Of a DNA stretch of 25,410 nucleotides, positions 1,546 to 20,645 are shown piece by piece. The position numbers were made by a program, and so were the translations under genes. The notes under the pieces were generated by a model, which was given only the letters and a program-made list of their open reading frames with translations, had not been told where the DNA came from and searched no databases. Numbering within the stretch: position 1 is the stretch's first letter; each line of letters opens with the position of its first letter. This DNA comes from a virus: IMG/VR virus record IMGVR_UViG_3300008113_000434, positions 1 through 25,410 of that record; one strand, written 5' to 3'.

Positions 1546-1850
1546 TGGCTAAAAGATTCTTAACCCCGATTCAGCTGGCAACGCTAGATGCGCCACCAGC
1601 TAATCCAATTCGTGGACAAATTTATTATGACAATGCCGAAGAAACAATTAAGGCATATAACGGACAAATTTGGTACGACGTGGCGGGACCTAAGAATATT
1701 TTAGATCACACTCACATTGGTTCTGGAATAGTTGAAGAAGTTCAGTACTCAAACTACGTAGACGGAGATAGAATATTTGCAGACAATGGAAGTATTAATT
1801 CAAGCTTTATAGATAATTATATTGACGGAGGTAGCGCAAGTGGCAATTAG
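1545..1850 (+). CDS. Short tail fibre-like protein
   Basis: A 101-residue protein whose start ATG overlaps the preceding stop by one base, suggesting translational coupling; the nearest SD-like site (AAGGTG, 1525-1530) is too far upstream. Its first 50 residues match the N-terminal module of the preceding fibre (PPANPIRGQIYYDNAEETIKAYNG). It also has the histidine motif DHTHIGSG and a SNYVDG segment. It looks like the head and neck of the larger fibre without shaft or tip. It may be a separate adaptor, a decoy paralogue or a relic of module exchange. Its end overlaps the next start by 11 nt. Confidence 0.7.
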   Translation: MAKRFLTPIQLATLDAPPANPIRGQIYYDNAEETIKAYNGQIWYDVAGPKNILDHTHIGSGIVEEVQYSNYVDGDRIFADNGSINSSFIDNYIDGGSASGN

Positions 1851-4800
1851 AATTCAATTAAGAAGAGATACAGCAGCAAACTGGACCTCCTACAATCCAA
1901 TCCTTAGAGCAGGTGAAGTTGGTGTAGAAACAGATACACAAAGACTAAAGGTCGGTGATGGTTCTTCAGCATGGCTTTCTCGTCCATATATCAACGTTCT
2001 TCCATCAGAGCTAAGAGAATTAGCACAAGACAATGTAAATGAAGCATTAACTGCTGGAAATGGTATTACAAAGGTCTATGATGACCTTAATAATACTATT
2101 ACTATATCCGTAGACACATCTATTATTGCAAATAGGTCATACGTAGATGCAGCAGTAGCAAATGTATTAGATAGCGCACCAGAAGTTCTTAATACACTTA
2201 ACGAACTCGCTGCAGCTATCGGAGATGATCCTGCATTCTTTACAACAGTAGCAAACAACCTTTCAACACACCAATCAGATACAACAAATATTCACGGAAT
2301 TGCAGATACTTCAAAGCTTGTAACAGACGACGGTGCTCAGACCCTTACAAACAAAAGTCTTACAAGTCCAACTCTTACAGGTGTTCCAACTGCACCAACT
2401 GCAACTGCAGGCACTAATACGACCCAGGTTGCTACTACAGAATTCGTAAAAACTGCAGTAGATAACTTAGTAGACGGAGCCCCAGCTCTTCTAGACACTT
2501 TAAATGAAATTTCTGCAGCTATTAACGACGACCCAGCTTTCTTTAGCAATGTTGCTACAAATTTAGCTTCACACGAAGCAGACACTACAAATATTCATGG
2601 TATTGCAAACACTGCCAAGCTAGTTACAGATGATGGGAATCAGTCTTTAACAAATAAAACAATTTCTGGATCAAGTAATCTTCTTACAAATATTGGAAAC
2701 GCTTCTCTTGTTAATCCTTCTATAACAATTAACGGGGTTGAGATATTCCTTGGAGGATCTGCAAACTATGATACAGATGATATTGTAGAGGGAACTAATA
2801 ATTTATATTTTACAGCTGAGAGAGCACAGGATGCAGTAGCTGCAGCTATTTTAGCTGGAACACATCAGAATCTTACTGTATCATACGATGATAATTTAAA
2901 TAAAATATCATTTGTTGCAGAAAATGGAGTTGCTGACTCTACAACAGATGACCTTGATGAAGGAACAACAAATCTTTACTTTACAGATCAAAGAGCAATT
3001 AATGCCGTAGGCGGATCTGCAACGTCTGCAGATGTTCCAAATACTGTCGTTAAAAGAAACGCTCTTGGAGATTTTGCAGCAGGAACAGTTACAGCAGATC
3101 TTGTTGGAAATGTGACTGGAACCGTAAGCGCAATTGATAACCACACCACTACAGGGCTTCCAGAAGGAGATAATTTATACTTCACAGGAACTAGAGTAAG
3201 AGACGAGGCTGCAGATACATTATTAGCAGGTAATGGTATTGATATTGAAGTAGACCCTCAAACAAAAGAAATTACAATATCTGGTGAGATTGCTTCTACA
3301 GGAAATGCAGGTATAGCGTTTTTCCATGAAGCAGACTTTACTGTAGATCAAAATGGCGGTGTAAATCTAGTACCAGAAAGAATTCAAGACATTGCTGCAG
3401 GAGCAACAGCTGCAGGAGAAGCAATTGATGTTTTTTATGACGATGTTAATAATCAGATAATTGTTTCAGCAGAAGATGCAACATATACAAATAAAGGTGT
3501 AGCAACTTTTGATTCAACAGACTTTGTTGTGACAAATGGAAATGTTGAATTGAATTCAGAAGGAGTAACTCAGATTGTTGGAGACATGATTTCCTCTAAC
3601 ACAGAGTCAGGAATATCTGTAACTTTTGACGGAATTAATAATAAATTAGATTTTAATGTAAATGATCCAACAATTACTTTAAGTGGAGATGTTGCAGGTT
3701 CGGCAACAATGACAAACTTAGGCAATGTTGAGATATCAACATCAATTCAGCCAAACTCAGTATCTTTAGGAACAGATACTACTGGTAATTATGTTCAAGA
3801 TATTACTGGGACAGTTAACGAGATAACTGTTTCTGGTTCTGGATCAGAAAGCGCATCAGTAGTAATTGGTTTACCTGATACAGTACACATTACAGACGAT
3901 CTTCAGGTTGGCGGAGATACAACAATTGTTGGAAATCTTACAGTACAAGGTACAACCACAACAATTACATCTCAAAACTTAGCAATTACAGATAAGTTAA
4001 TTGAATTAGGAAATACAGCCTCTCCAACAGACGCAGCAGCAGATGGTGGAGGTATATTCCTTCACGGAACAACAGATAAACATTTAGCTTGGTATGATGC
4101 AGCAGATGCTTGGACATCTTCTGAAAATTTTGATTTACATGTAGGCAAGGTTTACATGATTGATGAAACAGAAGTTTTGTCAAATAATGAACTTTTTGGA
4201 ATAAATAAAGACAATATTGGAAAGTTTACAGCAAAACCAGAAGCTTCTTGGCAAGGTACTGATGTACTTAGAATTGGAGAAATTGGTTTAGAGTCAGATA
4301 CTGGTAACTTTAAGATAGGAGATGGAACATCTACATGGTCTGCGTTAAACTATGTTAACGTGACACCATCTGATTTAAGCAACACAGTTGGAGACTATAT
4401 ACCGTTGGCGGACAGAGGAGTTAATGACGGTGTAGCTGCAATTAACTCTACTGGAGAAGTTCTTTCTTTATCTAATTTTGTTGCAAATAGCGATGCCACT
4501 ACAGGAGCCCCATCTGGAAACTATGGACTTATTGTTAAAAGAGGCAACCAGCCAGACGCTTTGCTTATTTGGAATGAGACATTGGATAGATGGACATACT
4601 CTAATGACGGCGGAACAAATAATTATGTAATAGCCTCAGAAGTATTTGTAAGCTCATCTGTATCCACACATAATGCAGACACTACAGACGTTCATGGGAT
4701 ATCTGATACAGCCAATCTGGTATATCAGGTAGACCTAGACGCAGTAGAACTTGCAGTTACAAATTCTTCTCAAACATATACTAATAATCAAATCTCGCTA

Positions 4801-6765
4801 CATAATAACGACACAACAAATGTTCACGGCATAACAGACACCGCAGATTTAGCATACCAGGCAGATCTTGTTGATGCAGTAACTACTTTAAATACAACAA
4901 TTCAGTCTGAAGTTACTGATTTAGAGATTCTTATCTCAGAAACAGTAACAAATCACTCAAATGATTCTACATCAGTTCACGGCATAGCAGACACAGCAGC
5001 GCTTGCAACATTTACATATGTCGATAATAAAGTTACCACAGACATAGCAACACATAATAATGATACTACAAACGTACATGGTATCCCAGATACCTCATTG
5101 TTGGCAACAATTTCTTATGTAAACCAGCAAGCAAGCTCAGCAGAATCTGATGCTGCAATTTATACAGATGCAGCTATAGTAACGCTAAATACCCAGGTAC
5201 AGCTTGACATTAATCAAGCTCAATCAGATGCTGAAACAGCTGCATCTTTTGCTTTATCGCAGGAGGTTACAGCAAGATCTCAAGCTATAGCTACTTCTGT
5301 AAATAACCATAATAACAGCACAACTTCAGTACATGGAATTGCTGATACATCTGCACTAGCAACAAAAACTTATGCAGACAATGCTGTATCAACACACAGT
5401 TTAGATACTACTGCAGTACATGGAATTGCCGATACAGCTCAACTTGCAACAAAGACCTATGCAGACAATAGCGCTTCAATATCTGCAGGAGCAGCTCAAA
5501 GCGCAGCAGAAACATTTGCAACTGGAGCCGTAACTACTCACAATTCAGATACCACAGATGTACATGGTATCTCAAATACTGCTAATCTTGTATATACAAA
5601 TGATGCAAGATTAAGCGACACTAGAACACCAACAGATGGATCTGTAACAGCGACTAAACTTGCAGCAGACTCAGTAACAAATAATGCAATAGCTGAAGGA
5701 TCAATTTCAATTACTAAGATTACTAACTTAGAAGATGATCTTGCAGCAAAATCCCCTTCAGACTCACCAGTATTTACTGGAACTGTTTCTTTGCCATCAA
5801 CCACAACTATTGGACTAGTTGACGGAACAGAAATTGGATATTTAAATGGAGTAACATCCAATATCCAGACACAGCTAACAACAAATGCTGATGAGATAGC
5901 GTTAAAAGCAAATATTGCATCTCCAACGTTTACTGGAGTTCCCGCAGCTCCTACAGCATCCGCTGGTACAAATACTACTCAAATTGCTACAACAGCATAC
6001 GTTAGAACAGAAGTTTCTAATTTAATTAATTCTGCTCCAACAACACTAGATACTCTTAATGAGTTAGCAGCAGCATTAAATAACGATGCTAGTTTTGCCA
6101 CAACAATCACAGCTGCGGTAGGATTAAAAGCACCATTAGCAAGTCCTACATTTACAGGTACAGTAACATTACCTAATTCAACAATTACAACAGTAATGCT
6201 TGCAAACGGCTCAGTAACTGCAGAAAAGATATTTGCAGGAACAATTACAAATGCAGAAATTAGCGCATCTGCAGCAATCGATCAATCTAAGATTTCAGGG
6301 TTGACTACTGCCCTGAATTTAAAGGCACCTCTTGCGTCTCCAACATTTACAGGATCTGTAACAGTTCCTGCTCCTACAGCAGACACACATGCTGCTACAA
6401 AGGCATATGTTGATTCTAAGGCTCAAGATATCATTCCTTTAGATAATTTAAATAGTCAATTTGATGGATCAAGGTCTAGGTTCCAGCCTAAATTAAATAA
6501 TGAAGCTGTTACAATTACAAACCCCCTTAGACTTTTGATAAGCATTAATGGTATAATTCAAATATTAGGAAATCCTGATAACCACTGGTTATCTCCGATT
6601 CCTTTTGATGGATTCTACGTAGATTCTGATGGGTACCTTAACTTTGGAGAGCCAGTTCCTAAAGGTTCGGTATTTGACGGAAGAGTAATGAATGGACCAG
6701 CTATAAATTCTGTAGACAGATTTAAGTATCCATTTAGACCGATAGATATATTATTAGGAGCGTAA
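1840..6765 (+). CDS. Large tail fibre / receptor-binding protein, 1641 aa
   Basis: I chose GTG 1840 because GGAGG (1827-1831) lies 8 nt upstream and the protein then begins MAIRIQLRRDTAANWTSYNP, the classic start of a phage Mtd-N-like fibre domain (…GEVGVETDTQRLKVGDGSSAW). A longer frame from TTG 1822 has no such site. A second copy of this module (ASWQG.DVLRIGEIGLESDTGNFKIGDG) is encoded near 4230-4340. Between and after them are nine HG[IV]-type repeats, three SAP..LDTLNELAAA..DD..F modules (near 2165, 2465 and 6020) and LTN/SPTFTG segments, all typical of long phage fibres. The C-terminal 110 residues (from FDGSRSRF) form a separate globular tip, probably receptor-binding. It is by far the largest gene here and probably the main host-range determinant. 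Confidence 0.88.
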   Translation: MAIRIQLRRDTAANWTSYNPILRAGEVGVETDTQRLKVGDGSSAWLSRPYINVLPSELRELAQDNVNEALTAGNGITKVYDDLNNTITISVDTSIIANRSYVDAAVANVLDSAPEVLNTLNELAAAIGDDPAFFTTVANNLSTHQSDTTNIHGIADTSKLVTDDGAQTLTNKSLTSPTLTGVPTAPTATAGTNTTQVATTEFVKTAVDNLVDGAPALLDTLNEISAAINDDPAFFSNVATNLASHEADTTNIHGIANTAKLVTDDGNQSLTNKTISGSSNLLTNIGNASLVNPSITINGVEIFLGGSANYDTDDIVEGTNNLYFTAERAQDAVAAAILAGTHQNLTVSYDDNLNKISFVAENGVADSTTDDLDEGTTNLYFTDQRAINAVGGSATSADVPNTVVKRNALGDFAAGTVTADLVGNVTGTVSAIDNHTTTGLPEGDNLYFTGTRVRDEAADTLLAGNGIDIEVDPQTKEITISGEIASTGNAGIAFFHEADFTVDQNGGVNLVPERIQDIAAGATAAGEAIDVFYDDVNNQIIVSAEDATYTNKGVATFDSTDFVVTNGNVELNSEGVTQIVGDMISSNTESGISVTFDGINNKLDFNVNDPTITLSGDVAGSATMTNLGNVEISTSIQPNSVSLGTDTTGNYVQDITGTVNEITVSGSGSESASVVIGLPDTVHITDDLQVGGDTTIVGNLTVQGTTTTITSQNLAITDKLIELGNTASPTDAAADGGGIFLHGTTDKHLAWYDAADAWTSSENFDLHVGKVYMIDETEVLSNNELFGINKDNIGKFTAKPEASWQGTDVLRIGEIGLESDTGNFKIGDGTSTWSALNYVNVTPSDLSNTVGDYIPLADRGVNDGVAAINSTGEVLSLSNFVANSDATTGAPSGNYGLIVKRGNQPDALLIWNETLDRWTYSNDGGTNNYVIASEVFVSSSVSTHNADTTDVHGISDTANLVYQVDLDAVELAVTNSSQTYTNNQISLHNNDTTNVHGITDTADLAYQADLVDAVTTLNTTIQSEVTDLEILISETVTNHSNDSTSVHGIADTAALATFTYVDNKVTTDIATHNNDTTNVHGIPDTSLLATISYVNQQASSAESDAAIYTDAAIVTLNTQVQLDINQAQSDAETAASFALSQEVTARSQAIATSVNNHNNSTTSVHGIADTSALATKTYADNAVSTHSLDTTAVHGIADTAQLATKTYADNSASISAGAAQSAAETFATGAVTTHNSDTTDVHGISNTANLVYTNDARLSDTRTPTDGSVTATKLAADSVTNNAIAEGSISITKITNLEDDLAAKSPSDSPVFTGTVSLPSTTTIGLVDGTEIGYLNGVTSNIQTQLTTNADEIALKANIASPTFTGVPAAPTASAGTNTTQIATTAYVRTEVSNLINSAPTTLDTLNELAAALNNDASFATTITAAVGLKAPLASPTFTGTVTLPNSTITTVMLANGSVTAEKIFAGTITNAEISASAAIDQSKISGLTTALNLKAPLASPTFTGSVTVPAPTADTHAATKAYVDSKAQDIIPLDNLNSQFDGSRSRFQPKLNNEAVTITNPLRLLISINGIIQILGNPDNHWLSPIPFDGFYVDSDGYLNFGEPVPKGSVFDGRVMNGPAINSVDRFKYPFRPIDILLGA
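2265..5610 (+). repeat. Nine HNxDTTxVHGIxDTxxL repeats in the large fibre
   Basis: The His-Gly-Ile/Val core is encoded near 2293, 2596, 4693, 4824, 4978, 5078, 5330, 5416 and 5561. Consensus is (T/N)H(N/x)xDTTxVHGIxDTxxL, often followed by a TYADN or TYVDN segment. The first two are isolated; the last seven form a tighter array. This motif is widespread in phage fibres. Its periodic histidines suggest trimer core or metal contacts, which is inference. Confidence 0.75.
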
Positions 6766-10327: not shown

Positions 10328-12001
10328 TTGGCTAAAAAGACTGGTAGAAAGTCCTCAGCAGTAGGTGACTATGAAAAGCCAATGCCACCAGAAAATCTGG
10401 TGGCCACAGACGTTGGTACAGATAGACTTTTTAATAATGGAGCAGCCAGCGTAGCTTTTACTGTAAACCCATTAAGTTCTGTTCCAACATCATTTAACGT
10501 TGTTTCAAGTCCTGGTAATTTTACAGGAGCAGGCACATCTTCTCCAATTGTTGTACAGGGTTTACAGTCTGGAGTACAGTATACATTCACAGCAACTGCT
10601 TCTAACAATAACGGTACATCAAATACTTCTGCTGCTTCTAATACAATAACAGCAACAACAGTTCCTTCTTCCCCAAGACTAGCAACAGCCGTTTCATCAG
10701 TTGCAGATCAAGACACAGTTACATGGTCTGCTCCAACTTCTGATGGAGGAAAACCAGTTACTAGCTACACTATTGTATCTAGTGACCCATCAGCTCAACT
10801 GCCAGCAAATGATGGTACACCAGGTCCAACATACTTAAATGTAACTTCACCATATACAATATCAGAAACTGGTGGTACAACACAAAGATATAAGATCTAT
10901 GCAATTAATGCTAATGGAACTTCTGATTTTATGGAAACTAATCCAATAACAACGTTCTTTAGCCCACCTTCATTCTTCGGTCCCCCAGCATTCTTTAGCC
11001 CTCCAAGATTCTTTGCTCCACCACAATTTTTCTCCCCACCAGCGTTCTTTTCACCTCCAGGATTCTTTAGTCCGCCACAATTCTTTTCTCCTCCTGCGTT
11101 TTTCTCCCCACCAGGATTCTTTAGTCCACCTTCTTTTTTCGGACCTCCAACATTCTTCGGACCACCAGCATTCTTCGGTCCTCCAAGATTCTTTAGCCCA
11201 CCAGGGTTCTTTGCGCCACCATACTTCTTTGGACCTCCTTTCTTCTTCGGTCCCCCAGCATTCTTTAGCCCTCCAGCATTTTTCTCGCCACCATTTTTCT
11301 TTGGGCCTCCAAGCTTCTTTGGCCCACCAAGATTCTTTGGGCCACCAGTGTTCTTTAGCCCTCCATTTTTCTTCGGACCACCAGCATTCTTTGGCCCACC
11401 AAGATTCTTTGGGCCTCCAAGCTTCTTTGGCCCACCAAGATTCTTTGCGCCACCTAGATTTTGTATCGAAGAGGACACTCCAGTCCTTACTCCAGAAGGA
11501 TACAAAAAGGCAAAAAATATTTCTATAGGGGATAAAGTATTAACATTGATGTTTGATGACTTAACGCTTGGTGATCCAAATTGTGAGGTCGGAGTAGTAA
11601 CAGAAGAGTGCTCTTCTATAGTAAAGTCATGGTCAACAGAAATGTTGTCAAATGTAAGAACAGTAGAGTCAGAAATTACAGATATTATAGTTGACCCAGC
11701 AGATTCTTTTATTATCATAAATAATGATGATAAGAAAAGATTTTCTAAGAAAGAAGATGTTCTTGTATTTAAAGACAATAAATATGTAATCGTTACATTA
11801 GAAAATCTAAAAATAGGTGACTATTTAGCTACTTATTCTGCAGAGGATAACGTTGTGAATCATACCATGATTAAAGACATTAAGGTTGTTAGAAAAGATA
11901 CAAATGTATTATTATTCTATAGAGAGCCTTACGGCATGATGATTGCAGGCGGAATGTTAGCCTATAATGGATGTCCATCTCAAGTCTTGACTAATCCTTA
12001 A
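10328..12001 (+). CDS. FN3 - (FFxPPx)28 - Hint chimeric protein
   Basis: A 557-residue protein from a TTG start with AGGAG (10317-10321) six nt upstream. Residues about 17-112 and 113-207 are two fibronectin-III-like domains (PP.NL.A..., YTFTATASNNNGTS, then TYTIVSSDP... and RYKIYAINANGTSD). Residues 210-377 are 28 perfect-length hexapeptides FF[SGA]PPx. C379 starts a Hint domain: block A is CIEEDTPVLTPEGY...ISIGDKVL (379-405), a second LKIGDYL lies at 494-500, and it ends at LAYNGCPSQVLTNP, where N547-G548-C549 would be the splice or cleavage site. The usual TxxH of block B is not seen; the aligned stretch reads FSKKED (472-477). No homing endonuclease fits in 170 residues, so this is a Hint or bacterial-intein-like domain rather than a full intein. 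Likely a surface adhesin whose C-terminus self-processes; the function is inferred. Confidence 0.85.
   Translation: MAKKTGRKSSAVGDYEKPMPPENLVATDVGTDRLFNNGAASVAFTVNPLSSVPTSFNVVSSPGNFTGAGTSSPIVVQGLQSGVQYTFTATASNNNGTSNTSAASNTITATTVPSSPRLATAVSSVADQDTVTWSAPTSDGGKPVTSYTIVSSDPSAQLPANDGTPGPTYLNVTSPYTISETGGTTQRYKIYAINANGTSDFMETNPITTFFSPPSFFGPPAFFSPPRFFAPPQFFSPPAFFSPPGFFSPPQFFSPPAFFSPPGFFSPPSFFGPPTFFGPPAFFGPPRFFSPPGFFAPPYFFGPPFFFGPPAFFSPPAFFSPPFFFGPPSFFGPPRFFGPPVFFSPPFFFGPPAFFGPPRFFGPPSFFGPPRFFAPPRFCIEEDTPVLTPEGYKKAKNISIGDKVLTLMFDDLTLGDPNCEVGVVTEECSSIVKSWSTEMLSNVRTVESEITDIIVDPADSFIIINNDDKKRFSKKEDVLVFKDNKYVIVTLENLKIGDYLATYSAEDNVVNHTMIKDIKVVRKDTNVLLFYREPYGMMIAGGMLAYNGCPSQVLTNP
10955..11458 (+). repeat. 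28 tandem 18-bp units encoding FF[S/G/A]PPx
   Basis: Twenty-eight in-frame units without any indel. Positions 1, 2, 4 and 5 (F, F, P, P) are invariant. Position 3 is Ser, Gly or Ala. Position 6 varies widely (S, A, R, Q, G, T, Y, F, V). Codons differ between units (TTC/TTT, CCA/CCT/CCC), showing protein-level conservation. Two exact DNA duplications mark recent exchange: 11297-11339 equals 11405-11447 (43 nt, offset of six units) and 10973-11005 equals 11243-11275 (33 nt, offset of 15 units). Confidence 0.95.
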
Positions 12002-12015
12002 TAAAATGCTAAAGT
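11987..12015 (+). promoter_or_regulatory. Candidate promoter for the oxygenase cluster, leaderless
   Basis: TTGACT (11987-11992), 17-nt spacer, then TAAAGT (12010-12015) preceded by the extended -10 TG at 12007-12008. The ATG at 12022 follows after six nt, where transcription would be expected to begin. No Shine-Dalgarno site precedes the ATG. The -35 lies inside the last codons of the Hint gene. Confidence 0.55.
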
Positions 12016-12021
12016 AGTTCT

Positions 12022-12672
12022 ATGAAAAAAGAACAGTTATTCCCTGGTTTGTGGAAGTACTCTGATGTATTTACTTCTAAGCCTTATTTAATTAAAACAC
12101 TTGAGGATACAATTTCAAGAAGTAATGGAAAATACTCATGGGAAGATTCTGAAGTGGGACATGACGATTTAATTAAAGATTATCGTGACTGCAAAGATTT
12201 TAAGCTGGGTAGATTTGGTCAAGAAGAGCAAGATGAATATATAGAAGAGTTTAATTCTATTTGGAAAGAAATAACTGATCTTCAGTCAGGTCCAGTTAAA
12301 GAATATTGTGATTTTTATAATATTCAGATGAATTTTTCTGAGTGGATTAATGTTGTTAAATATGGTCCAAACCAATACTTCAAAGAGCATGCAGACCATG
12401 GTTATTCATACATATCTACCGTTTCTTTAGTTGGGTATCCAAATAAAGAATATGTTGGAGGATCTTTATATTTCCCTAAGCTAGGAATAAATATAGAACC
12501 AGACGAAGGTGATCTTTATATATTCCCATCCACATACTTATTTTCACATGTAGCAATGCCAGTTCAATCAGGAACAAAGTATTCATTTGTAACAATGTTA
12601 GACTATAATGACTATACCCATACAGAAGAGTATGAAGAATTTATTAAGAACAAATACCTAGGAGATAAATAA
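12022..12672 (+). CDS. Fe(II)/2-oxoglutarate dioxygenase, prolyl-4-hydroxylase type (1)
   Basis: 216 residues. A double-stranded beta-helix domain occupies about residues 100-195. Iron ligands are H123 and D125 (FKEHADHGYSY) and H176 (LFSHVAMP). K186 in SGTKYSFVTML is positioned to bind the 2-oxoglutarate C5 carboxylate, as Lys does in animal and algal prolyl-4-hydroxylases, where many bacterial relatives use Arg. YVGGSLYFPKLG and EGDLYIFPS are the usual strand motifs. The family couples 2-oxoglutarate decarboxylation to hydroxylation of a protein side chain or small molecule. First gene of a likely transcription unit; one-base overlap with the next gene. The closest relative here is the next gene, sharing most of the catalytic core. 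The substrate is not shown; the proline repeats just upstream are a natural candidate. Confidence 0.87.
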   Translation: MKKEQLFPGLWKYSDVFTSKPYLIKTLEDTISRSNGKYSWEDSEVGHDDLIKDYRDCKDFKLGRFGQEEQDEYIEEFNSIWKEITDLQSGPVKEYCDFYNIQMNFSEWINVVKYGPNQYFKEHADHGYSYISTVSLVGYPNKEYVGGSLYFPKLGINIEPDEGDLYIFPSTYLFSHVAMPVQSGTKYSFVTMLDYNDYTHTEEYEEFIKNKYLGDK

Positions 12673-13367
12673 TGTTTTCACCAAATGCAGAATATCTATA
12701 TCACGGAATTGTTGTTTACAGAAATGTATTCAATAACCTAGACTTAGTTAACAGACTAGAAACAGCACTTGCTTCTAGCGATTCAAAATATAAATGGAAC
12801 CAAGCGCAAACTGGATATGCAAATACAGATTTAAAGTATCGTGATGCTCATGACTTTAAAATTAAAGTTAATAGCGACGAGAGCTTAATGCTACAAATGG
12901 ATTATGTAGAAAAGAAGAATCAAAAAGAGGCAGAAATTGCCCTTAAATCTATTTATGAAGATTCCAAGAAAGCACAAGAGGGGCCAGTAGAAGAATATAG
13001 ACGAGTATTTGGTCTTGCCCCATTAAACTATTGGGAAGCTTTTAACTTTGTTCGATATGGCAAAGACCAACACTTTCAAGTACATTCCGATCATGGCTAT
13101 TCCTACATATGCGTACTATCTTCAGTAGGATATATTAATGATGATTACGAAGGTGGAGAATTGCATTTTGACAAGTTAGGTTTGACCTTTAAGCCAAAAG
13201 CTGGAGACCTATATCTTTTCCCATCCTCATACATATATTCACACTCGGCAAACCCTGTGACATCTGGAACGAAATACTCCATAGTTACAATGTTAGATTA
13301 TCTAGAAGCACCTCACACACCAGATTATCGTGACATCGAAAAAAGATACTCAGAGGGCTATGTATAA
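12672..13367 (+). CDS. Fe(II)/2-oxoglutarate dioxygenase, prolyl-4-hydroxylase type (2)
   Basis: 231 residues, tandem paralogue of the preceding gene with a different N-terminal half. Iron ligands are H138 and D140 (FQVHSDHGYSY) and H191 (YSHSANP); K201 in SGTKYSIVTMLDY is the probable 2-oxoglutarate-binding residue. EGGELHFDKLG and AGDLYLFPSS are shared with copy 1. The helical insert at residues 65-105 (Lys/Glu-rich) is longer than in copy 1. The ATG overlaps the previous stop by one base and has AGGAG seven nt upstream. Both copies keep all catalytic residues, so neither looks like a decaying duplicate; different substrates or a heteromer are possible. Confidence 0.87.
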   Translation: MFSPNAEYLYHGIVVYRNVFNNLDLVNRLETALASSDSKYKWNQAQTGYANTDLKYRDAHDFKIKVNSDESLMLQMDYVEKKNQKEAEIALKSIYEDSKKAQEGPVEEYRRVFGLAPLNYWEAFNFVRYGKDQHFQVHSDHGYSYICVLSSVGYINDDYEGGELHFDKLGLTFKPKAGDLYLFPSSYIYSHSANPVTSGTKYSIVTMLDYLEAPHTPDYRDIEKRYSEGYV

Positions 13368-14079
13368 GATAGATGCATATAAGACTTCTGAAGATGCAGC
13401 TATAATTACCCCTCTTCAGGTAAAAAGAGATTGGATGGAGCTAACTCATGAAAGGCATGCGTATAGTTGTTTCCCAGTAACATTAACTAATTCTTTGGGA
13501 TTTGGCCTATCTTTTCCAGAAGATATAGTTTTTATGTGGGACGGATCGTCTGACGCTAGGCCAGAACATGTTAAAATTTTATCTGGTCATAAATATGCTT
13601 ATACTGAAAGAGCAAATGCCACAATCAGTTTTAAAACTGGTTTAGTATTTAGAACAGAAGAAAATGTAAGCTTACTTGGAATGCCTACGCCTAATATGTT
13701 TTTAGATGGAGCATACCCATTTACAACTGCAATCAGTACTTCTTGGTACGAAGCAGACTTTCCAGTAGCCTGGAGAATCACAAAGCCAGGAGTTGCAATT
13801 ACAATCCCAGCAGGGTACCCAGTAATTACTGTATTGCCTATATCTCTTTCTAATATTAATGAGTCTGAAGTCACTCTAAGGTACAAAAAAGATATGCCAC
13901 CCTCAAAGTTTTCTAGTTTGTACAATGAAACAGATCATATAAAAATTGTTTCTGAATATGCTGTTAAAAAAGAGTGGACCAATTTTTATAGAAATGCAGT
14001 AGACTACCTTGGCAATAAATTAGGTAAACATGAAGTAAAAAGTATAAGGTTAAAGGTTATAGATAATGCCAAAAATTAA
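13360..14079 (+). CDS. DUF6065-like protein
   Basis: 239 residues from ATG 13360, which overlaps the preceding gene by 8 nt; a longer frame from GTG 13330 is less likely because the family I recall begins close to an xxIDAY motif. The signature RDWMELTHERHAYSCFPVTL at residues 23-42 and WDG at 60-62 fit my recollection of DUF6065, a family of unknown function in bacteria and phages. The pattern of GxxIxIPAGYPVITVLPI strands near the C-terminal half suggests a beta-barrel or cupin-like fold. No clear metal triad is visible. It sits between dioxygenase genes, so a role in the same pathway (substrate binding or partner) is inferred only from position. Confidence 0.72.
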   Translation: MYKIDAYKTSEDAAIITPLQVKRDWMELTHERHAYSCFPVTLTNSLGFGLSFPEDIVFMWDGSSDARPEHVKILSGHKYAYTERANATISFKTGLVFRTEENVSLLGMPTPNMFLDGAYPFTTAISTSWYEADFPVAWRITKPGVAITIPAGYPVITVLPISLSNINESEVTLRYKKDMPPSKFSSLYNETDHIKIVSEYAVKKEWTNFYRNAVDYLGNKLGKHEVKSIRLKVIDNAKN

Positions 14080-14806
14080 ATTTGGATCAGCACGTCCATA
14101 CAATAATGAGCCAGAGTCAAAACCTCTTGAGCCAGGCCCAATTAAAAATTTCATGCCAGACTGGTGGAAAGATGCTACTAGGTACTGGCTAAATGATGAG
14201 GGGGATCCAATTGTTGCCTCCTATAATAAAGATGATCAAGAAGAAAAGTCTCTAGGCTTCAAGTCATGCCCAGCACTTTTAGATATATTTTCAGTTGGAT
14301 ATACATTACGAACTCCAACGGACATTATGTTTGTGCAGTATGAAGGCCAACCATTTGTTGTCATAGATGAAAAATATAAAGATTTTTGTGAAGCAAGAAG
14401 TGACATGCCTCAGTTTAAGTATCCACATGGATATCACAAAAAACATTTTCATTGGTGGCCTAACTGGGGTATCGAGATGCCTCCAGGATATAGCGCATTG
14501 GTAACTACGCCTTTAAATAGATATGATTTACCTTTTTTAACAGTTAACGGTATAATTGACAGTGATAGGTATACTATGCCAGGACTTATGCCTTTCTTCT
14601 TAAAAGAAGGATTCTCTGGGCTTATTCCAAAAGGAACTCCATTTGCCCAAGTAATCCCTATTAAAAGAGAAGACTGGAACTCAGAAATGATATACTATAC
14701 AAATGATCAGATGTACGATAGACATGTGAGCGTTGTAGAAAAGTATAGAGTTAAGTTCGGTGGCATCTATAAAAGAAAAACTTGGATTAAAAAGAATTAC
14801 GAATAG
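14066..14806 (+). CDS. Second DUF6065-like / cyanophage-type conserved protein
   Basis: 246 residues, start overlapping the previous gene by 14 nt. Features: an early MPDWWKD motif, KSCPALLDIFSVGYTL near residue 70, a His/Trp-rich stretch (YHKKHFHWWPNWGIEMPPGYS, about 124-144) and FSGLIPKGTPFAQVIPIKRE near 190-209. I recall proteins of this pattern as conserved hypotheticals in cyanophages. The order of motifs (C-P...GY.L..P.DI, W.I..P.GYS, IP.GTP...VIP) parallels the preceding protein, so the two are probably distant paralogues. The HKKHFHWW segment could bind metal, but no known catalytic set is evident. Function unknown. Confidence 0.72.
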   Translation: MPKIKFGSARPYNNEPESKPLEPGPIKNFMPDWWKDATRYWLNDEGDPIVASYNKDDQEEKSLGFKSCPALLDIFSVGYTLRTPTDIMFVQYEGQPFVVIDEKYKDFCEARSDMPQFKYPHGYHKKHFHWWPNWGIEMPPGYSALVTTPLNRYDLPFLTVNGIIDSDRYTMPGLMPFFLKEGFSGLIPKGTPFAQVIPIKREDWNSEMIYYTNDQMYDRHVSVVEKYRVKFGGIYKRKTWIKKNYE

Positions 14807-14815
14807 GAGAAAGAA

Positions 14816-15547
14816 ATGGCATTTGAAAGCGCAGTAGACCCAGACATTGTATTAAATTATGATTCTCTTGAAGACGGTAGAAATGTTAGAACATCTAGAA
14901 AATCAATTACTCCTTCTGGATGGTTTGGTGAGGACAAGAGCATGATTCAAGAAATTGAAAACTTCTTGACTGATGAAGAATGCGACTACTTAGAAAACTT
15001 TGCTCGAAATAACAAAATTTGGGACGTAACAGAATCACATTACAATGAGAATGGAACCATCATATACGACCACAGACCGTGGGAAAATAGAGTAGCAACT
15101 TTAAATACTTTAATGAAGGCTGATGAAAAAGTTGTAGAGATGCTAAGAGCAATTATTGAAAGATTAAAGCCTGTTATCGATGAGTTCTTTCAAGTAAATG
15201 CAGAGCCAACAAATCCAGCAATTGTAAGATGGCCAGTTGGAACATTTCAGTTTCCTCATGCGGACAAAGAGCTACATGAGGGTCCTGACGCAGGAACAGA
15301 AAACGATTTTCCATGGTATGATTTAGGAACCATCTTCTATTTAAATGATGATTACACTGGTGGAGAATTACATTTTCCAAGACAAGAAGTAATGTTTAAG
15401 CCTAAGCGCAAAGCAGTATATTTCTTTCCTGGAGATAAGTATTTTATTCATGGAGTAAATAAGGTTTTGTCTGGAACAAGATATACGTCTCCTTGGTTCT
15501 GGACCATTAGAGAATTGCATGGTGAAAGAAAAAATGTCAGCTGGTAA
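14816..15547 (+). CDS. Fe(II)/2-oxoglutarate dioxygenase (3)
   Basis: 243 residues with AGGAG (14805-14809) six nt before the ATG. Residues 44-65 (IQEIENFLTDEECDYLENFA) are the usual N-terminal helix-strand unit of prolyl-4-hydroxylase-like proteins. Iron ligands are H148 and D150 (FQFPHADKE) and H212 (YFIHGVNKV). R222 in SGTRYTSPWFW is the likely 2-oxoglutarate salt-bridge residue, in contrast to Lys in copies 1 and 2. TGGELHFPRQ and YFFPGDKYF are the typical core strands. The family is clear; the substrate is unknown. Overlaps the next gene by 14 nt. Confidence 0.87.
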   Translation: MAFESAVDPDIVLNYDSLEDGRNVRTSRKSITPSGWFGEDKSMIQEIENFLTDEECDYLENFARNNKIWDVTESHYNENGTIIYDHRPWENRVATLNTLMKADEKVVEMLRAIIERLKPVIDEFFQVNAEPTNPAIVRWPVGTFQFPHADKELHEGPDAGTENDFPWYDLGTIFYLNDDYTGGELHFPRQEVMFKPKRKAVYFFPGDKYFIHGVNKVLSGTRYTSPWFWTIRELHGERKNVSW

Positions 15548-16280
15548 TTACGAAGCTTTAAAAGAAAAGTATCCAACTTTAACAGTACATAAAGATGATT
15601 GCTTTACTATTGAAAACTTTATTACACCAGATGAAGCTACTAAGATTATTGCTTATTTAGAGCATTTAGTAGACTCTGGAAAATTGCAATGGAATCAAAT
15701 ATCTTTTTATGATTCTTTTGCTATGGGATTTTGGGATTCAGATAAAAACTTAGAGCAATTTGGTTTGCCAGAAGATTATTTCCCTAGACTAAAGTTTAAG
15801 ATTAAAAAAGCTGGGGAGGCCTTGTTTGGAATTAAATGGGATGAGATTAGTTACCATGCACAAAAGTGGATCCCAGGAGCATTTGCAGATTTTCATTCAG
15901 ACAACACAGATCACGAAGGAAACCCAACTGCATTCGAAAGAAGTCGTTATGCAGCATTTATGTATTTAAATGAAGATTTTACTGGAGGCCTTTTAAACTA
16001 TAGAGACTTTGATATTACTATTACTCCAAAGGTTGGTCTTATTGCAATATTTGCAGGAGGATTCGGTAATGAGCATGAAGTAACAACCGTAAAGGATGGA
16101 ACAAGATATACAATTGGGTCTTTTTGGGACGATGCTTCTATAGTATACACAGATGAGCAAAGACAAAGATGGGCAGACGAATTAGCAGAAACAAGAAAAG
16201 AACAAGATGAGCAGTACAAGCAGTGGGCTGTAGATAAAGAAACAGGACACACACCTATATATAAAGGTAAGGGAGAATAA
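15534..16280 (+). CDS. Fe(II)/2-oxoglutarate dioxygenase (4)
   Basis: 248 residues from ATG 15534. I prefer this over ATG 15519 because GGTGA (15521-15525) stands 8 nt upstream, the same kind of site used by the capsid gene; the longer form adds only five residues. Iron ligands are H121 and D123 (FADFHSDNTDHEG) and H181 (GNEHEVTTV); R191 in GTRYTIGSFW binds 2-oxoglutarate. TGGLLNYRDFDI replaces the usual GGELxF strand. The C-terminal 40 residues are Glu/Gln/Lys-rich and probably helical, absent from the other copies. N-terminal CFTIENFITPDEATKI is family-like. Substrate unknown. Confidence 0.85.
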   Translation: MSAGNYEALKEKYPTLTVHKDDCFTIENFITPDEATKIIAYLEHLVDSGKLQWNQISFYDSFAMGFWDSDKNLEQFGLPEDYFPRLKFKIKKAGEALFGIKWDEISYHAQKWIPGAFADFHSDNTDHEGNPTAFERSRYAAFMYLNEDFTGGLLNYRDFDITITPKVGLIAIFAGGFGNEHEVTTVKDGTRYTIGSFWDDASIVYTDEQRQRWADELAETRKEQDEQYKQWAVDKETGHTPIYKGKGE

Positions 16281-16281
16281 A

Positions 16282-16929
16282 ATGGCAGTAGATGAAAGTA
16301 TTCCAGAAAGCGATCTAATTAAATACTCTGATAAAATTTTGTATTATAAGAATGCTATACCAAGCATTACAGAGCTAGTAGCTGATTTAGATGAATACCA
16401 AGAGCAGTATAACCCAGAAAATTGTTTTGTTGGGCCATGGGAAGATTGGGCTTCAAATGATGACCCATCTCATTTTTACGGTGAAAGACGCACAGGTTAT
16501 TACGACAGCTTAGAAAATAATCAAGGAGAGCTCTCCGAGTATGACCAAAAAGCAAAAAGCATTGTTGCTAACGTAAAAGAAGCAATTGAGAGTCTTGCTA
16601 GAGACTACTCAGCTAATACAGACACAGTAGACTACGGATCCCTTTTAGATACATTTCAAATTGTTAAGTATAAAGAGGGCGAAGAGATGGGACTTCATTA
16701 TGACAGATACCCAGACTCTGACAAAATAACATCTTTGTCTGCAGTAATTTATGTAAATGATAACTATGAAGGTGGCCATATTCATTTCCCAGATTTTGAT
16801 TTAGCTATTAAGCCAGAAGCTGGGAGTGTTTTGTTTTTCCCATCAACAGAAGATTACGAGCACGAGTCGTTAGCAGCACACAACGGCAGAAAGATTATGA
16901 TTCCTATATTCTTTTATAAGTCGGTATAA
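16282..16929 (+). CDS. Fe(II)/2-oxoglutarate dioxygenase (5)
   Basis: 215 residues with GGGAG (16271-16275) six nt before ATG. Iron ligands are H139 and D141 (GLHYDRYPD) and H194 (YEHESLAAH); R203 or K204 in HNGRKIMIPIFF is the likely 2-oxoglutarate-binding residue. YEGGHIHFPDFDLAIKPEAGSVLFFPS is the core strand run (positions 163-188). The DTFQIVKYKEGEEMGLHYD stretch parallels the VVKYGPNQYFKEHAD segment of copy 1, so it is nearer copies 1 and 2 than 3 and 4 in this part. Last gene of the cluster; the LamG gene follows after 9 nt with its own strong ribosome site. Confidence 0.86.
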   Translation: MAVDESIPESDLIKYSDKILYYKNAIPSITELVADLDEYQEQYNPENCFVGPWEDWASNDDPSHFYGERRTGYYDSLENNQGELSEYDQKAKSIVANVKEAIESLARDYSANTDTVDYGSLLDTFQIVKYKEGEEMGLHYDRYPDSDKITSLSAVIYVNDNYEGGHIHFPDFDLAIKPEAGSVLFFPSTEDYEHESLAAHNGRKIMIPIFFYKSV

Positions 16930-16938
16930 GGAGATTAA

Positions 16939-18666
16939 ATGTCTTATCAGTTAAAGGTTATAAAAGATAACCCAATAGGATTCTGGATGCTAGAAGAGTC
17001 TTCTGGAACAGTTGCGTCTGATAAGTCTGGTTGTGGAAATAATGGAACCTATGTAGGTGGTATTAGTGCAAATATGTTGCCATTAGTACCAGGCGGAGTA
17101 TCTGGAAACAAGATCACTAATACTTCCTACATAACATTTCCAGTAACAAAAAATTATTATGGACAAACAGCATCCTCTGCTTTGGCCAATAAAAATACTG
17201 TCGATAACTCATTTACCTTAGAGGCCTGGATATATCCTTCAATATCTTCAAGCTCTTCAATCCCATTATTTGCAGATATAACAAATAATATTGGACTATA
17301 TTGGGAGAACTCTGCAAACATTGTGTTCAAGATCTCAAGTTCAGAAAAAATATCTTATGCTGTTCCATATTTTAAGAAAGCATTACATGTAGTAGGTGTT
17401 TATACAGCAACCTCAATATCTTTGTATGTAGATAGCATTCTTGTTGGAACAAAAAATATTTCTAATTTTAAATTTTTAAATAATACTACTTTATTTCAAT
17501 CTGGGCCTACATCAAGCGCAGAAGATTTCTTTATATTTGATGCTCCAGCGGTATATAGATATCAGCTTAATGATTCTTCAATTAAAAAGCATTATGTTGA
17601 GGGAAGCATATCAAAGAACCCTATTCAGGTTGTCTACCCAGACGAAGGAATTTTGTTTAGCTTAAATGACATGAAAATTAAGCCACAGTTCGTTTATACC
17701 TATCCTAAAAATAGAAATTGGTCAGAGATTATAGATGGATCAACTGTCTATTATGATAATATAAACAATTATATTGCATTTTACGATATTGATTTATCTG
17801 GGGCTAAAACATTTACCTATACCGATTCCTTTACTATCCCAACAGAGATTGGATTAATTTCTTCAAAAATAGAGTGGAGAAATGATTATGGCATTACTGT
17901 TAGAACCAGCATAGATGGAACTAACTGGCAGCCATGTTCTAATGGTGAAGCTATTCCTCAATACAAAAAAGGTTCATTTGATACTTCTGGAAAACTATTT
18001 GTAGAAATAACGATGGCTACGCCAGACATCACATTGTTTAATCCAAGACTATCATTTTTTGCTATCAGCTTGTTCTCAGACAAAGATATATATTCAGACA
18101 ATTTTGGAGACAAAATATCTTCATCTACAGAATATTCTTTAGGCTCCATAGATTACCCTATTTTGTCTAGAAACTATTCAAACGGAATTAGAGGTAACTC
18201 GTTCATCTTAAGCACAAGCTTACAAGCAAAATCCTTAGAGATGTTTTACACCCCAAACGGTACCGCAGAATTCGGTTTAATTTCAGGCACAGGAACTGGA
18301 TATTCCTGGAACGGATCTGGGGTAATTTCTAAGCTAAACGTAGATAAGATATATGTTAATGGGGTAGACAGAACCTCAGCAACTAACATTAGCTCCTGGC
18401 TGGTAGACGGACAGCCTCATCATATTGTAGTTGTTTTTGCCACCCCTATTACAAATAATATAACATTTAACCACACGTCAGTAAATAGTCACCTATATAA
18501 AAATATTGCTGTATATTCTAAGACCCTGACTGCCTCCATAGTTACAGAACACTATAATTGCTATGTTGGGAAGCCTTCTACTAGCATTCAAGAACCTGTA
18601 ATGACTATGACAGAATTAACTCCTAAATACTATAATAATGACTGGGTAGTCATCCAAACAATTTAA
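16939..18666 (+). CDS. LamG-type lectin-like virion protein, 575 aa
   Basis: AAGGAG (16928-16933) precedes the ATG by five nt. Residues 10-215 are a concanavalin/laminin-G-like fold: PIGFWMLEESSGTVASDKSG, NGTYVGG, SFTLEAWIYPS and HVVGVYTATSISLYVDSILVG are the expected strands. Residues about 225-395 form a second beta-rich unit of unknown family (a SIDGTNWQPCS segment recalls discoidin-like domains). Residues about 400-545 look like another, more diverged LamG-type unit (SLEMFYTPNGTAEFG, WLVDGQPHHIVVVF, KNIAVYSKTL). Such proteins occur in phage tails and bind host glycans. Its place after the dioxygenases suggests it is either another substrate or simply the next tail gene. Confidence 0.8.
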   Translation: MSYQLKVIKDNPIGFWMLEESSGTVASDKSGCGNNGTYVGGISANMLPLVPGGVSGNKITNTSYITFPVTKNYYGQTASSALANKNTVDNSFTLEAWIYPSISSSSSIPLFADITNNIGLYWENSANIVFKISSSEKISYAVPYFKKALHVVGVYTATSISLYVDSILVGTKNISNFKFLNNTTLFQSGPTSSAEDFFIFDAPAVYRYQLNDSSIKKHYVEGSISKNPIQVVYPDEGILFSLNDMKIKPQFVYTYPKNRNWSEIIDGSTVYYDNINNYIAFYDIDLSGAKTFTYTDSFTIPTEIGLISSKIEWRNDYGITVRTSIDGTNWQPCSNGEAIPQYKKGSFDTSGKLFVEITMATPDITLFNPRLSFFAISLFSDKDIYSDNFGDKISSSTEYSLGSIDYPILSRNYSNGIRGNSFILSTSLQAKSLEMFYTPNGTAEFGLISGTGTGYSWNGSGVISKLNVDKIYVNGVDRTSATNISSWLVDGQPHHIVVVFATPITNNITFNHTSVNSHLYKNIAVYSKTLTASIVTEHYNCYVGKPSTSIQEPVMTMTELTPKYYNNDWVVIQTI

Positions 18667-18708: not shown

Positions 18709-19071
18709 ATGGTAAAATATAATCCTATGGACATTAAAAAGCTCAGTCAGTCAGTTGTTGAAGAAACAACTCTTGGTATATATGTTTGGGAAATGCCAGA
18801 TGGCAGATGGATCGGAGATGACGATGGAAATTTTCTTTCGATCACGGCCAAAAAAGGAAACAGATCCAGAATCGATGCTCTGGCTAGAGAAGTTCGCTCA
18901 TACGGTATATATGAGGGCGGGCCTAAGTTTCTTTCGGGAAGACGAAAGATTGATGACGAAGAATTTGAGCATCAAAAGCAAAGACTTGAATGGGGACTAG
19001 TTCCAGATCCTTTTGATATTGGAAATTATAAAGACGAGATGAAAGCTTTGAAGGGCGGAAGACAGCAATGA
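18709..19071 (+). CDS. Small conserved phage protein upstream of portal
   Basis: 120 residues, Asp/Glu- and Arg-rich, no signal or membrane segment. Distinctive segment: EETTLGIYVWEMPDGRWIGD, then DDDGNFLSI, KGNRSRIDALAREVRSYGI and QRLEWGLVPDPFDIGN. I associate this pattern with hypothetical proteins near the head genes of large actinophages, but I cannot name a function. The terminase, usually placed here, is absent, so a role in packaging or portal assembly is a guess. ATG 18727 is an alternative start that removes six residues. Its stop overlaps the portal ATG (ATGA). Confidence 0.75.
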   Translation: MVKYNPMDIKKLSQSVVEETTLGIYVWEMPDGRWIGDDDGNFLSITAKKGNRSRIDALAREVRSYGIYEGGPKFLSGRRKIDDEEFEHQKQRLEWGLVPDPFDIGNYKDEMKALKGGRQQ

Positions 19072-20645
19072 ATTTTATTGAAGACGAAGATAGCTCAGTT
19101 CAGATATCTACAGCGTCAGACTTATCTCGATTTGCAAATGTATATGTAGAAAAAACAACTGATGAGTTTAAGATGCAAGGTGATGATTTAAGAAAGCTTC
19201 ACGGTTTAAGTCCAGCATTTAAACGTAAGATGACAAGAGACATGCAAAAGATGTTTGTTGGAACAGATGGAGCACAGACACAACAGAATCTTCTTGCACA
19301 AGCAATTACTGGATATGCGCTATTTGATTTAATTGAGCCACCATTTAACTTAGACTATCTGTCAAAGGTATATGAAATATCTCCATACAACTACGCAGCA
19401 ATTAATGCTAAGGTTGCAAACATTGTTGGTCTTGGATATGATTTTACTGAGACAAGAAAAGCAAAAGAAGTTTTGGACGATATCAATGATGAAAAACAAT
19501 TGCAGAGAGCAAGAAAAAAGCTTAATAGACTAAGACAAGATTTAGATGCGTGGCTAGAAGCTTGTAATCAAGAAGAAACATTCGTAGAAACTCTTATTAA
19601 GGTTTACACAGACGTAGAATCTACTGGCAATGGATACCTTGAAGTAGGACGTACTACAAGCGGTAAGATTGGATATATAGGCCATATCCCAGCAAAGACT
19701 ATGCGTGTGCGTCGTTTACGTGATGGCTTTGTTCAGTTGCTGTACGGTAAAGCAGTATTTTTCCGTAACTTTGGAGATCAAGATACTCCAAACCCAATTG
19801 CTGGACAAGAAGACCGCCCAAATGAAATTGTTCACATAAAGAAATATACTCCAACAAATAATTACTACGGAATCCCAGACATCGTAGCAGCGGTTAATGC
19901 TATGGCTGGAAACGAGTTTGCTGGAAAGTATAATCTTGATTACTTTGAAAATAAAGCTGTCCCAAGATATATTGTCACAGTCAAAGGCGCAAAGCTTTCT
20001 TCAGAATCAGAAAGAAAGTTATTAGAGTTCTTCCAGGTTGGACTTAAGGGCAAGAATCATAGATCTTTATATATTCCTCTGCCAGCAGACAGCCCAGACT
20101 CAAAAGTTGAATTTAAGATGGAGCCAGTTGAGGCAGATGCTCAGGACTCATCATTTAATAATTATAGAAAAATGAATAGAGACGAAATACTTCTAGCCCA
20201 TAGAACACCTATTAGCAAAATTGGTCTGCCAGAAGGAATTAATTTAGCTGCAGCCCGTGATGCAGATAAGACATTTAAAGAGCAGGTTACAAGACCAGCC
20301 CAAGATATTCTTGAAAAGAAAATCAATAAATTGGTTGAAGAGATGACAGATGCTCTATATCTTAAATTAAATGAACTAACATTGACAGACGAAGATACCC
20401 AGTCAAAGATAGATGAAAGATATTTAAGAATGAAGGTAATTACTCCTAACGAAGTCCGTATTCGAAAAGGTATGGTTCCTATCGATGGCGGGGATGAAGT
20501 AGTAGAATTAAAGCCTCAGCAAGCAGCAGAGCAAAGAGCTCAGGCAGGCAATACAAGAACTAGAACCCAGGAAAGATCTGCAAATTCTCCAGATATTTCA
20601 GGAGAGGCTAGACAGCCAAAAGGAGAAGGTCGAGTTACGGAATAA
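19068..20645 (+). CDS. Portal protein (PBSX/HK97-like)
   Basis: 525 residues. It forms the dodecameric DNA entry channel at the capsid vertex and docks the terminase. Evidence: YEISPYNYAAINAKVANIVGLG (about 103-124), VYTDVESTGNGYLEVGR near 180-196, IPAKTMRVRR, NEIVHIKKYTPTNNYYGIPDIVAA (about 254-277), and NYRKMNRDEILLAHRTPISKIGL with ARDADKTFKEQV in the C-terminal half are the ordinary portal signatures of the PBSX family. Length is usual. The last 45 residues are Gln/Arg/Glu-rich and disordered. It overlaps the preceding gene by four nt and is followed by a hairpin, then the protease gene. Confidence 0.9.
   Translation: MNFIEDEDSSVQISTASDLSRFANVYVEKTTDEFKMQGDDLRKLHGLSPAFKRKMTRDMQKMFVGTDGAQTQQNLLAQAITGYALFDLIEPPFNLDYLSKVYEISPYNYAAINAKVANIVGLGYDFTETRKAKEVLDDINDEKQLQRARKKLNRLRQDLDAWLEACNQEETFVETLIKVYTDVESTGNGYLEVGRTTSGKIGYIGHIPAKTMRVRRLRDGFVQLLYGKAVFFRNFGDQDTPNPIAGQEDRPNEIVHIKKYTPTNNYYGIPDIVAAVNAMAGNEFAGKYNLDYFENKAVPRYIVTVKGAKLSSESERKLLEFFQVGLKGKNHRSLYIPLPADSPDSKVEFKMEPVEADAQDSSFNNYRKMNRDEILLAHRTPISKIGLPEGINLAAARDADKTFKEQVTRPAQDILEKKINKLVEEMTDALYLKLNELTLTDEDTQSKIDERYLRMKVITPNEVRIRKGMVPIDGGDEVVELKPQQAAEQRAQAGNTRTRTQERSANSPDISGEARQPKGEGRVTE

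Follow-up and report, generated by a model that had tools for sequence, protein, structure and literature searches.

A prolyl-hydroxylase-like oxygenase array linked to aromatic-proline repeat genes in viral contigs: a candidate self-modification cassette of tailed phages

The DNA analyzed here (G000, hereafter the window) is a 25,410-base virus record whose genes are laid out like those of a tailed phage from tail to head. Within it, an open reading frame (ORF) at 10328-12001 encodes a 557-residue repeat protein, R, which is followed by five genes for Fe(II)- and 2-oxoglutarate (2OG)-dependent oxygenases and two genes for DUF6065-like proteins (Table 1). From R to the fifth oxygenase the genes are co-directional and overlap or abut in one tight run, within which no promoter or terminator signal exceeded those of shuffled sequences; the searches for tRNA and Rfam matches found none. 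An earlier reading of this DNA (the original prediction) took the run for a possible phage hydroxylation system.

Table 1. Positions of the repeat gene, the oxygenase run and neighboring features in the window, with related loci on other contigs in the last row.
Position	Strand	Feature	Match or remark
10328..10954	+	R, N-terminal part with fn3 domain (residues 48-105)	PF00041 3.6e-6, above cut-off
10955..11458	+	28 tandem FF[SGA]PPx units, candidate hydroxylation substrate	predicted disordered
11462..11998	+	R, C-terminal Hint-fold domain	Cys1 kept; block-B His to Glu, penultimate His to Tyr
12022..12672	+	class-A 2OG-Fe(II) oxygenase A1, HxD...H...K	PF13640 2e-9
12672..13367	+	class-A 2OG-Fe(II) oxygenase A2, HxD...H...K	PF13640 1.2e-12; 1-base overlap with A1
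13330..14079	+	DUF6065 protein x	likely start ATG 13360; PF19541 6.3e-31, 108 bits against cut-off 26.6
14066..14806	+	DUF6065-like protein y	phrog_7084 3e-30; aligned with x
14816..15547	+	class-B 2OG-Fe(II) oxygenase, HAD...H...R	PF13640 2.8e-6; conserved in 86 loci
15519..16280	+	class-C 2OG-Fe(II) oxygenase, HSD...H...R	PF13640 1.4e-7; conserved in 67 loci
16282..16929	+	fifth 2OG-Fe(II) oxygenase, HYD...H...K	PF13640 1.5e-11; variable slot in relatives
1822-6765		large tail fibre ORF	1,647 residues; several fibre PHROGs matched
16939-18666		LamG protein	just after oxygenase run
19068-20645		portal	then protease and capsid genes
L094:8655-9620, L473, L483, L497, L503, L513, L102		PF11397 loci

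The tract in R consists of exactly 28 uninterrupted FF[SGA]PPx units containing 56 prolines, just as the original prediction had counted, and its DNA is also detected as an 18/36-bp tandem array. The units differ synonymously, with CCA, CCT, CCG or CCC for proline and TTC or TTT for phenylalanine, and since synonymous codons are mixed in this way it is the amino-acid pattern that is maintained. Across the repeat proteins the Phe pairs are as invariant as the Pro pairs. The 28 Pro-Pro pairs of R should make its translation dependent on EF-P. When the repeats are modeled as a monomer with AlphaFold they are all coil at a predicted local distance difference test score (pLDDT) of about 45, with no confident structure. 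A collagen-type reading of the repeats was rejected, as glycine need not occupy each third position and the oxygenase array does not accompany GPP repeats. Codon choice for phenylalanine also depends on position in the unit, the first Phe being TTC in 91% and the second TTT in 69% of 1,368 units from 122 proteins. The 293-residue minus-strand ORF over the repeats (10897-11778), which reads as GGPKN repeats, arises as a side effect of the codons used in the units and is not a gene.

Assignment of R to the tail fibre or tip class follows from its fn3 domain, from the genes upstream of it, which match tail and virion families, and from one relative (L094) in which the repeat array continues into an S74 endosialidase chaperone. 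S74 chaperone domains occur in trimeric phage fibres, from which they are normally cleaved off. Among 115 complete repeat proteins, 45 end no more than 60 residues past the array (31 of these no more than 12) and 65 carry more than 140 residues past it, mainly Hint-like. This survey, together with the S74 fusion in L094, places the tract at the C-terminal tip or close to it. The fact that the C-terminal modules vary means that the linkage to enzymes described below is to the repeat and not to the Hint domain.

The five oxygenase ORFs all pass the PF13640 double-stranded beta-helix model with 28.6-49 bits against a cut-off of 27. Each retains the HxD...H iron triad and a basic residue, as had been read from the translations, the latter at H+10, with the HxD of classes B and C taken from a separate alignment (an insertion is present). 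Alignment places lysine at H+10 in three of the ORFs (12022, 12672 and 16282) and arginine in two (14816 and 15519), so that the earlier count of two lysine-type enzymes was one too low. This 2OG-binding residue is lysine in collagen and algal prolyl 4-hydroxylases (P4Hs) and arginine in PHD2. The triad and the lysine are retained in nearly all of 152 class-A sequences, and A2 has at least 172 viral relatives. Relative to contig L003, A2 and class B are as conserved as the portal (90% vs. 91% identity), with ratios of nonsynonymous to synonymous change (pN/pS) of 0.10, 0.10 and 0.11 for A2, class B and portal, respectively; such low values place A2 and class B under strong purifying selection. 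The fifth oxygenase is the least conserved in the array, with a pN/pS of 0.38 to 0.58. Structures matched by the array profiles in the PDB are almost all of P4H, P3H1, PHD2, LH3 and PiuC, among them P3H1 at 1.6e-14, the Bacillus anthracis P4H at 3e-13 and P4H 5c5t at 1e-11, the last of which we take to be the structure of a eukaryotic-virus enzyme discussed below. Judged by these profiles, the closest solved relatives of the oxygenases are mostly peptidyl hydroxylases, with prolyl ones leading.

The evidence that ties these enzymes to the repeat comes from gene neighborhoods. With A2 as the starting point, an FFxPP gene stands directly upstream in nearly all loci whose upstream DNA is long enough, although this is a biased direction of search. 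Viral contigs were also scanned with enzymes ignored, for DNA encoding three consecutive FFxPPx units, and duplicates were removed by C-terminal sequence. Among the matches listed, which form neither a complete nor a random sample and to which the FFxPP counts in this paragraph refer, there are 102 distinct FFxPP proteins. An oxygenase is encoded within 3 kb downstream of 48 of the 52 genes with at least 3 kb of downstream sequence, upstream of none of the 49 with at least 3 kb of upstream sequence, and only downstream in all 17 loci with both flanks (Fisher test of downstream vs. upstream, 2e-24, relatedness ignored). Clustering of the first-downstream oxygenases gives 15 groups at 60% identity and 33 at 70%. 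In three of the four exceptions the locus or contig contains a second repeat gene followed by oxygenases, and the record of the fourth (L161) includes another array that oxygenases follow; PF13640 genes were found in 20 of 20 repeat-bearing records tested, all four apparent exceptions included. Over 10 records, and among the matches listed, the 9 kb after the array contain 56 PF13640 matches and the other 818 kb contain 21, a density 24-fold that elsewhere. The original prediction had named co-occurrence in other phage genomes as a check, and the outcome supports it: the FFxPP-oxygenase link is near-constant and downstream only. No report of this linkage was found in the open-access literature searched (no subscription journals). 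Three records (G015, G016 and G020, i.e., L161, L090 and L148) carry two FFxPP arrays several kb apart, with an oxygenase array directly behind only one.

Control loci behave differently from FFxPP loci. For GPP repeats in phages, an oxygenase was found in 1 of 69 cases, and in cellular genomes the 11 pattern matches were low-complexity or chance-like, none with an oxygenase. As a control within the phage family we took 26 portal relatives with at least 7 kb of upstream sequence, of which 2 combine FFxPP with the array, 21 lack both, and 3 have oxygenases without FFxPP; the repeat never occurs there in the absence of the array. The full array is confined among them to the two FFxPP carriers and L243, where it reads A-A-x-y-B... 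in a record lacking FFxPP; directly upstream of it lies a gene for an fn3-Hint protein with a different aromatic-proline tract, FFPPFFPPYFPYFPYFPPYFPP... This exception led us to expect that the array tracks aromatic-proline repeats generally, and prompted a second enzyme-blind scan with [FY]FP[PY]-type tetrads, which returned 107 distinct proteins. An oxygenase lies within 3 kb downstream in 53 of 62 cases and upstream in 1 of 46. DUF6065 is present within 3 kb in 40 of the 62, and the pair of class A then DUF6065 recurs. Nine of the [FY]FPP genes lack an oxygenase; two of these have DUF6065, and the rest are mostly arrays inside larger proteins.

These distributions bear on two accounts of the locus that involve no modification of R. 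That the repeat gene and the array are merely co-inherited within a single phage lineage and functionally unconnected seems extremely improbable. About 30 loci do share the portal neighborhood of the window, as such an account would have it, but the association persists with an inverted class H (L106, L110), with differing C-terminal modules and enzyme sets and with two repeat classes, and the repeat-less portal relatives are mostly without the array. It also appears very unlikely that the oxygenases act on DNA, in repair or base modification, or tune host 2OG and nitrogen metabolism, as has been proposed for cyanophage members (PMC3037559, PMC9602691). Some PHROG names do read "DNA endonuclease", yet an AlkB-type structure stands only at the bottom of the list of solved relatives (E = 0.003), and roles of this kind leave both the aromatic-proline linkage and the one-sided gene order unexplained. 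We regard that name and "ferrochelatase" as carried over in annotation, because PF13640 matches these ORFs above its cut-off.

A different account is invited by two of the portal relatives, L269 and L279, which carry one or two oxygenases with DUF6065, sugar-nucleotide and glycosyltransferase genes in the same slot. The cassette could make or modify a sugar, lipid or small surface molecule of host or virion, with the tail gene adjoining it by way of a variable receptor-related slot, and the presence of UDP-glucose dehydrogenase (UDP, uridine diphosphate), GDP-mannose dehydratase-type enzymes (GDP, guanosine diphosphate), glycosyltransferase, DUF6065 and oxygenases in the slot of repeat-less portal relatives is consistent with this. 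We consider it unlikely, because what the cassette is linked to in repeat loci is the repeat gene as such, on one side and with specificity relative to GPP, and sugar-nucleotide genes are not among the recurrent neighbor clusters examined. L279 also encodes, at 446-1696, a Cys-rich tail repeat of GQSGPGYSCNAY type, in a slot with sugar-nucleotide enzymes, DUF6065 and a single oxygenase. Separate modification cassettes may exist for other repeat classes.

With oxygenase clusters lettered A to Z at 45% identity, FFxPP loci follow the order R-A(A)-x-y-B-C/D-E in dozens of contigs, the minimum being R-A-x, where x is DUF6065. In L106 and L110 an opposite-strand class-H oxygenase separates R from A, so that the linkage survives strand changes. 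Between R and A in 11 loci (e.g., L097:809-2084) there is a sulfotransferase (PF03567) followed by an Asp/Asn beta-hydroxylase (PF05118). In 7 loci a PF11397 N-acetylglucosamine (GlcNAc) transferase gene lies 14-2700 bp downstream of the aromatic-proline repeat gene; no such gene was found in the portal and GPP control loci or in the window. PF11397 is presumably the family of Gnt1, the GlcNAc-transferase acting on hydroxyproline of Skp1, and its proximity to the repeats is, at the family level, a hint of hydroxyproline.

This diversity of enzymes raises the question of which residue would be modified. The oxygenases could act on R or on neighboring fibre proteins but spare the repeat prolines, their targets being Phe, Asp/Asn, Lys or positions in other domains, with the repeats marking only a type of fibre. 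The several oxygenase classes per locus, the Asp/Asn beta-hydroxylase of the 11 loci and the invariance of the Phe pairs would fit such targets. We nevertheless hold this to be rather unlikely, given that the closest solved relatives are mainly prolyl hydroxylases and that both repeat classes and a variant in L414 are Pro-rich despite differing in spacing and small residue.

The DUF6065 genes are the second constant element of the cassette. Two DUF6065-like proteins had been noted originally; for x the designation stands, while y has no Pfam match, matches phrog_7084 and is a distant, profile-level relative. An AlphaFold 2 model of x (pLDDT 92) has a predicted dUTPase-like fold, with a Z of 11.7 and a root-mean-square deviation of 2.7 over 112 residues. 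It differs from dUTPases in sequence (~12% identity), in length (~250 vs. ~140 residues) and in gene context, and nucleotide hydrolysis is not indicated. In the y-class consensus, GIID.D and GTP..Q resemble dUTPase motifs 3 and 4 by eye; the corresponding stretches of y (14066-14806) and its relatives read GIIDxD and KGTPxAQ. This likeness suggests that y-class proteins may descend from dUTPases. Speculatively, DUF6065 could be a partner of the fibre, in trimeric assembly or in binding. No match to x was found in cultured phages, and no mention of DUF6065 in the open-access literature searched.

The C-terminal domain of R begins at Cys379 (nt 11462). It is modeled by AlphaFold with a pLDDT of about 93 and resembles inteins, bacterial intein-like (BIL) domains and hedgehog domains at a Z of about 16 (up to 16.3), which bears out the Hint fold named in the original prediction, at the level of the model; Pfam Hint models match it only under their cut-offs. 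The window domain is like BIL domain 2lwy and the hedgehog autoprocessing domain in fold (Z about 16) and in its N-terminal Cys, and differs from inteins, BIL and hedgehog domains in its replaced histidines and in being an optional module among the repeat-protein relatives. The block-B TxxH histidine is absent from the window domain, where the motif reads SKKE (H, Q or E in an alignment of 33 relatives), and the C-terminal His-Asn pair is also absent, since AYNGC keeps the Asn and has Tyr for His; in the same alignment some relatives end in FDM or VIA, without the catalytic Asn. With two standard catalytic histidines missing, cleavage or ligation by this domain is doubtful, and with ~40% of repeat proteins lacking Hint altogether, a general cleaving or attaching role, as once proposed for it, is not supported. 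Close relatives of the window domain were found in two contigs only, and cultured phages gave a single weak Hint match (Phage NCTB).

Taken together, the linkage, the enzyme family and the intact catalytic residues make it probable that the run serves a tailed phage as a self-modification cassette, in which prolyl-hydroxylase-like oxygenases hydroxylate the aromatic-proline tract of R, most likely at its prolines. R would be made in the bacterial cytoplasm with its disordered aromatic-aromatic-small-Pro-Pro tract exposed near the C-terminus, where class-A enzymes would bind it and hydroxylate proline in the infected cell, either ahead of tail assembly or while it proceeds. Its invariable partners would be a class-A oxygenase and DUF6065, the latter probably aiding modification or fibre assembly. 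Further oxygenases would act at other positions, and in other phages the sulfotransferase, Asp/Asn hydroxylase and GlcNAc-transferase may elaborate the tract. The modified tract, otherwise an aggregation-prone hydrophobic segment, would be placed at the fibre tip, and the likely purpose would be to make this strongly hydrophobic stretch soluble, as a fibre tip of polyproline type that is possibly glycosylated or sulfated.

Several points weigh against this proposal. The contigs are not independent, so the P values overstate the association. L269 and L279 carry slot oxygenases and DUF6065 without aromatic-proline repeats, and near seven [FY]FPP proteins there is no oxygenase and no DUF6065. Linkage cannot name the modified residue, and Phe or other fibre proteins could be the targets. 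Cellular genomes, lastly, hold no comparable system that could serve as a model.

If self-hydroxylation of the repeat protein is true, it would explain why phages carry such enzymes; the association itself points to a specific candidate substrate, marks R, class A and DUF6065 as the smallest gene set and gives DUF6065 a functional context. More tentatively, it is possible that uncultured phages build hydroxyproline-rich, partly glycosylated or sulfated fibre tips by means of an exchangeable cytoplasmic cassette, with class A and a dUTPase-fold DUF6065 as its core, as a counterpart of the hydroxyproline-rich glycoproteins of plant cell walls or of mussel adhesive proteins.

Known systems resemble parts of this arrangement. 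The P4H system of a eukaryotic virus comprises one enzyme and other repeat motifs, without a linked repeat gene array or DUF6065. For that P4H-family enzyme, described in 1999, hydroxylation of proline-rich viral repeat peptides was proposed, according to a passage of the article citing it (PMC9301287), and the class-A profile matches 5c5t at 1e-11. The literature calls viral use of prolyl 4-hydroxylase cryptic. The B. anthracis P4H (5hv0, 3itq) and the PiuC/PKHD hydroxylases, the best solved matches, share the PF13640 fold with HxD...H...K, but are single cellular genes unlinked to an aromatic-proline repeat protein. In the Skp1 pathway of Dictyostelium and Toxoplasma, the cytoplasmic prolyl hydroxylase PhyA acts before the GlcNAc-transferase Gnt1 (PMC3515798, PMC11570480); the likeness lies in the PF11397 gene beside the repeat gene in 7 phage loci, whereas the Skp1 target is a single proline on a eukaryotic protein. 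T4-like cyanophage 2OG-Fe(II) oxygenases (T4-GC 104, 412; phrog_61) belong to the same superfamily as the array, and cyanophage ACG-2014h has two of them directly after a short tail fibre gene. Among cultured phages, classes A and B are ~30% identical to cyanophage proteins, at best coverage; the ACG-2014h region lacks FFxPP, and the published proposals for phage 2OG oxygenases concern DNA repair or metabolism, such as host nitrogen metabolism (PMC3037559, PMC9602691).

As to the phage itself, the portal is ~60% identical to those of Streptomyces phages of Stanwilliamsviridae, and because of this resemblance an actinobacterial host is likely. In the large tail fibre ORF (1822-6765), residues 1133-1294 match a PHROG named polysaccharide deacetylase, possibly a capsule-active domain. 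The ORF at 67-1545, a phage structural protein, has a bactofilin (polymer-forming) match barely over the cut-off.

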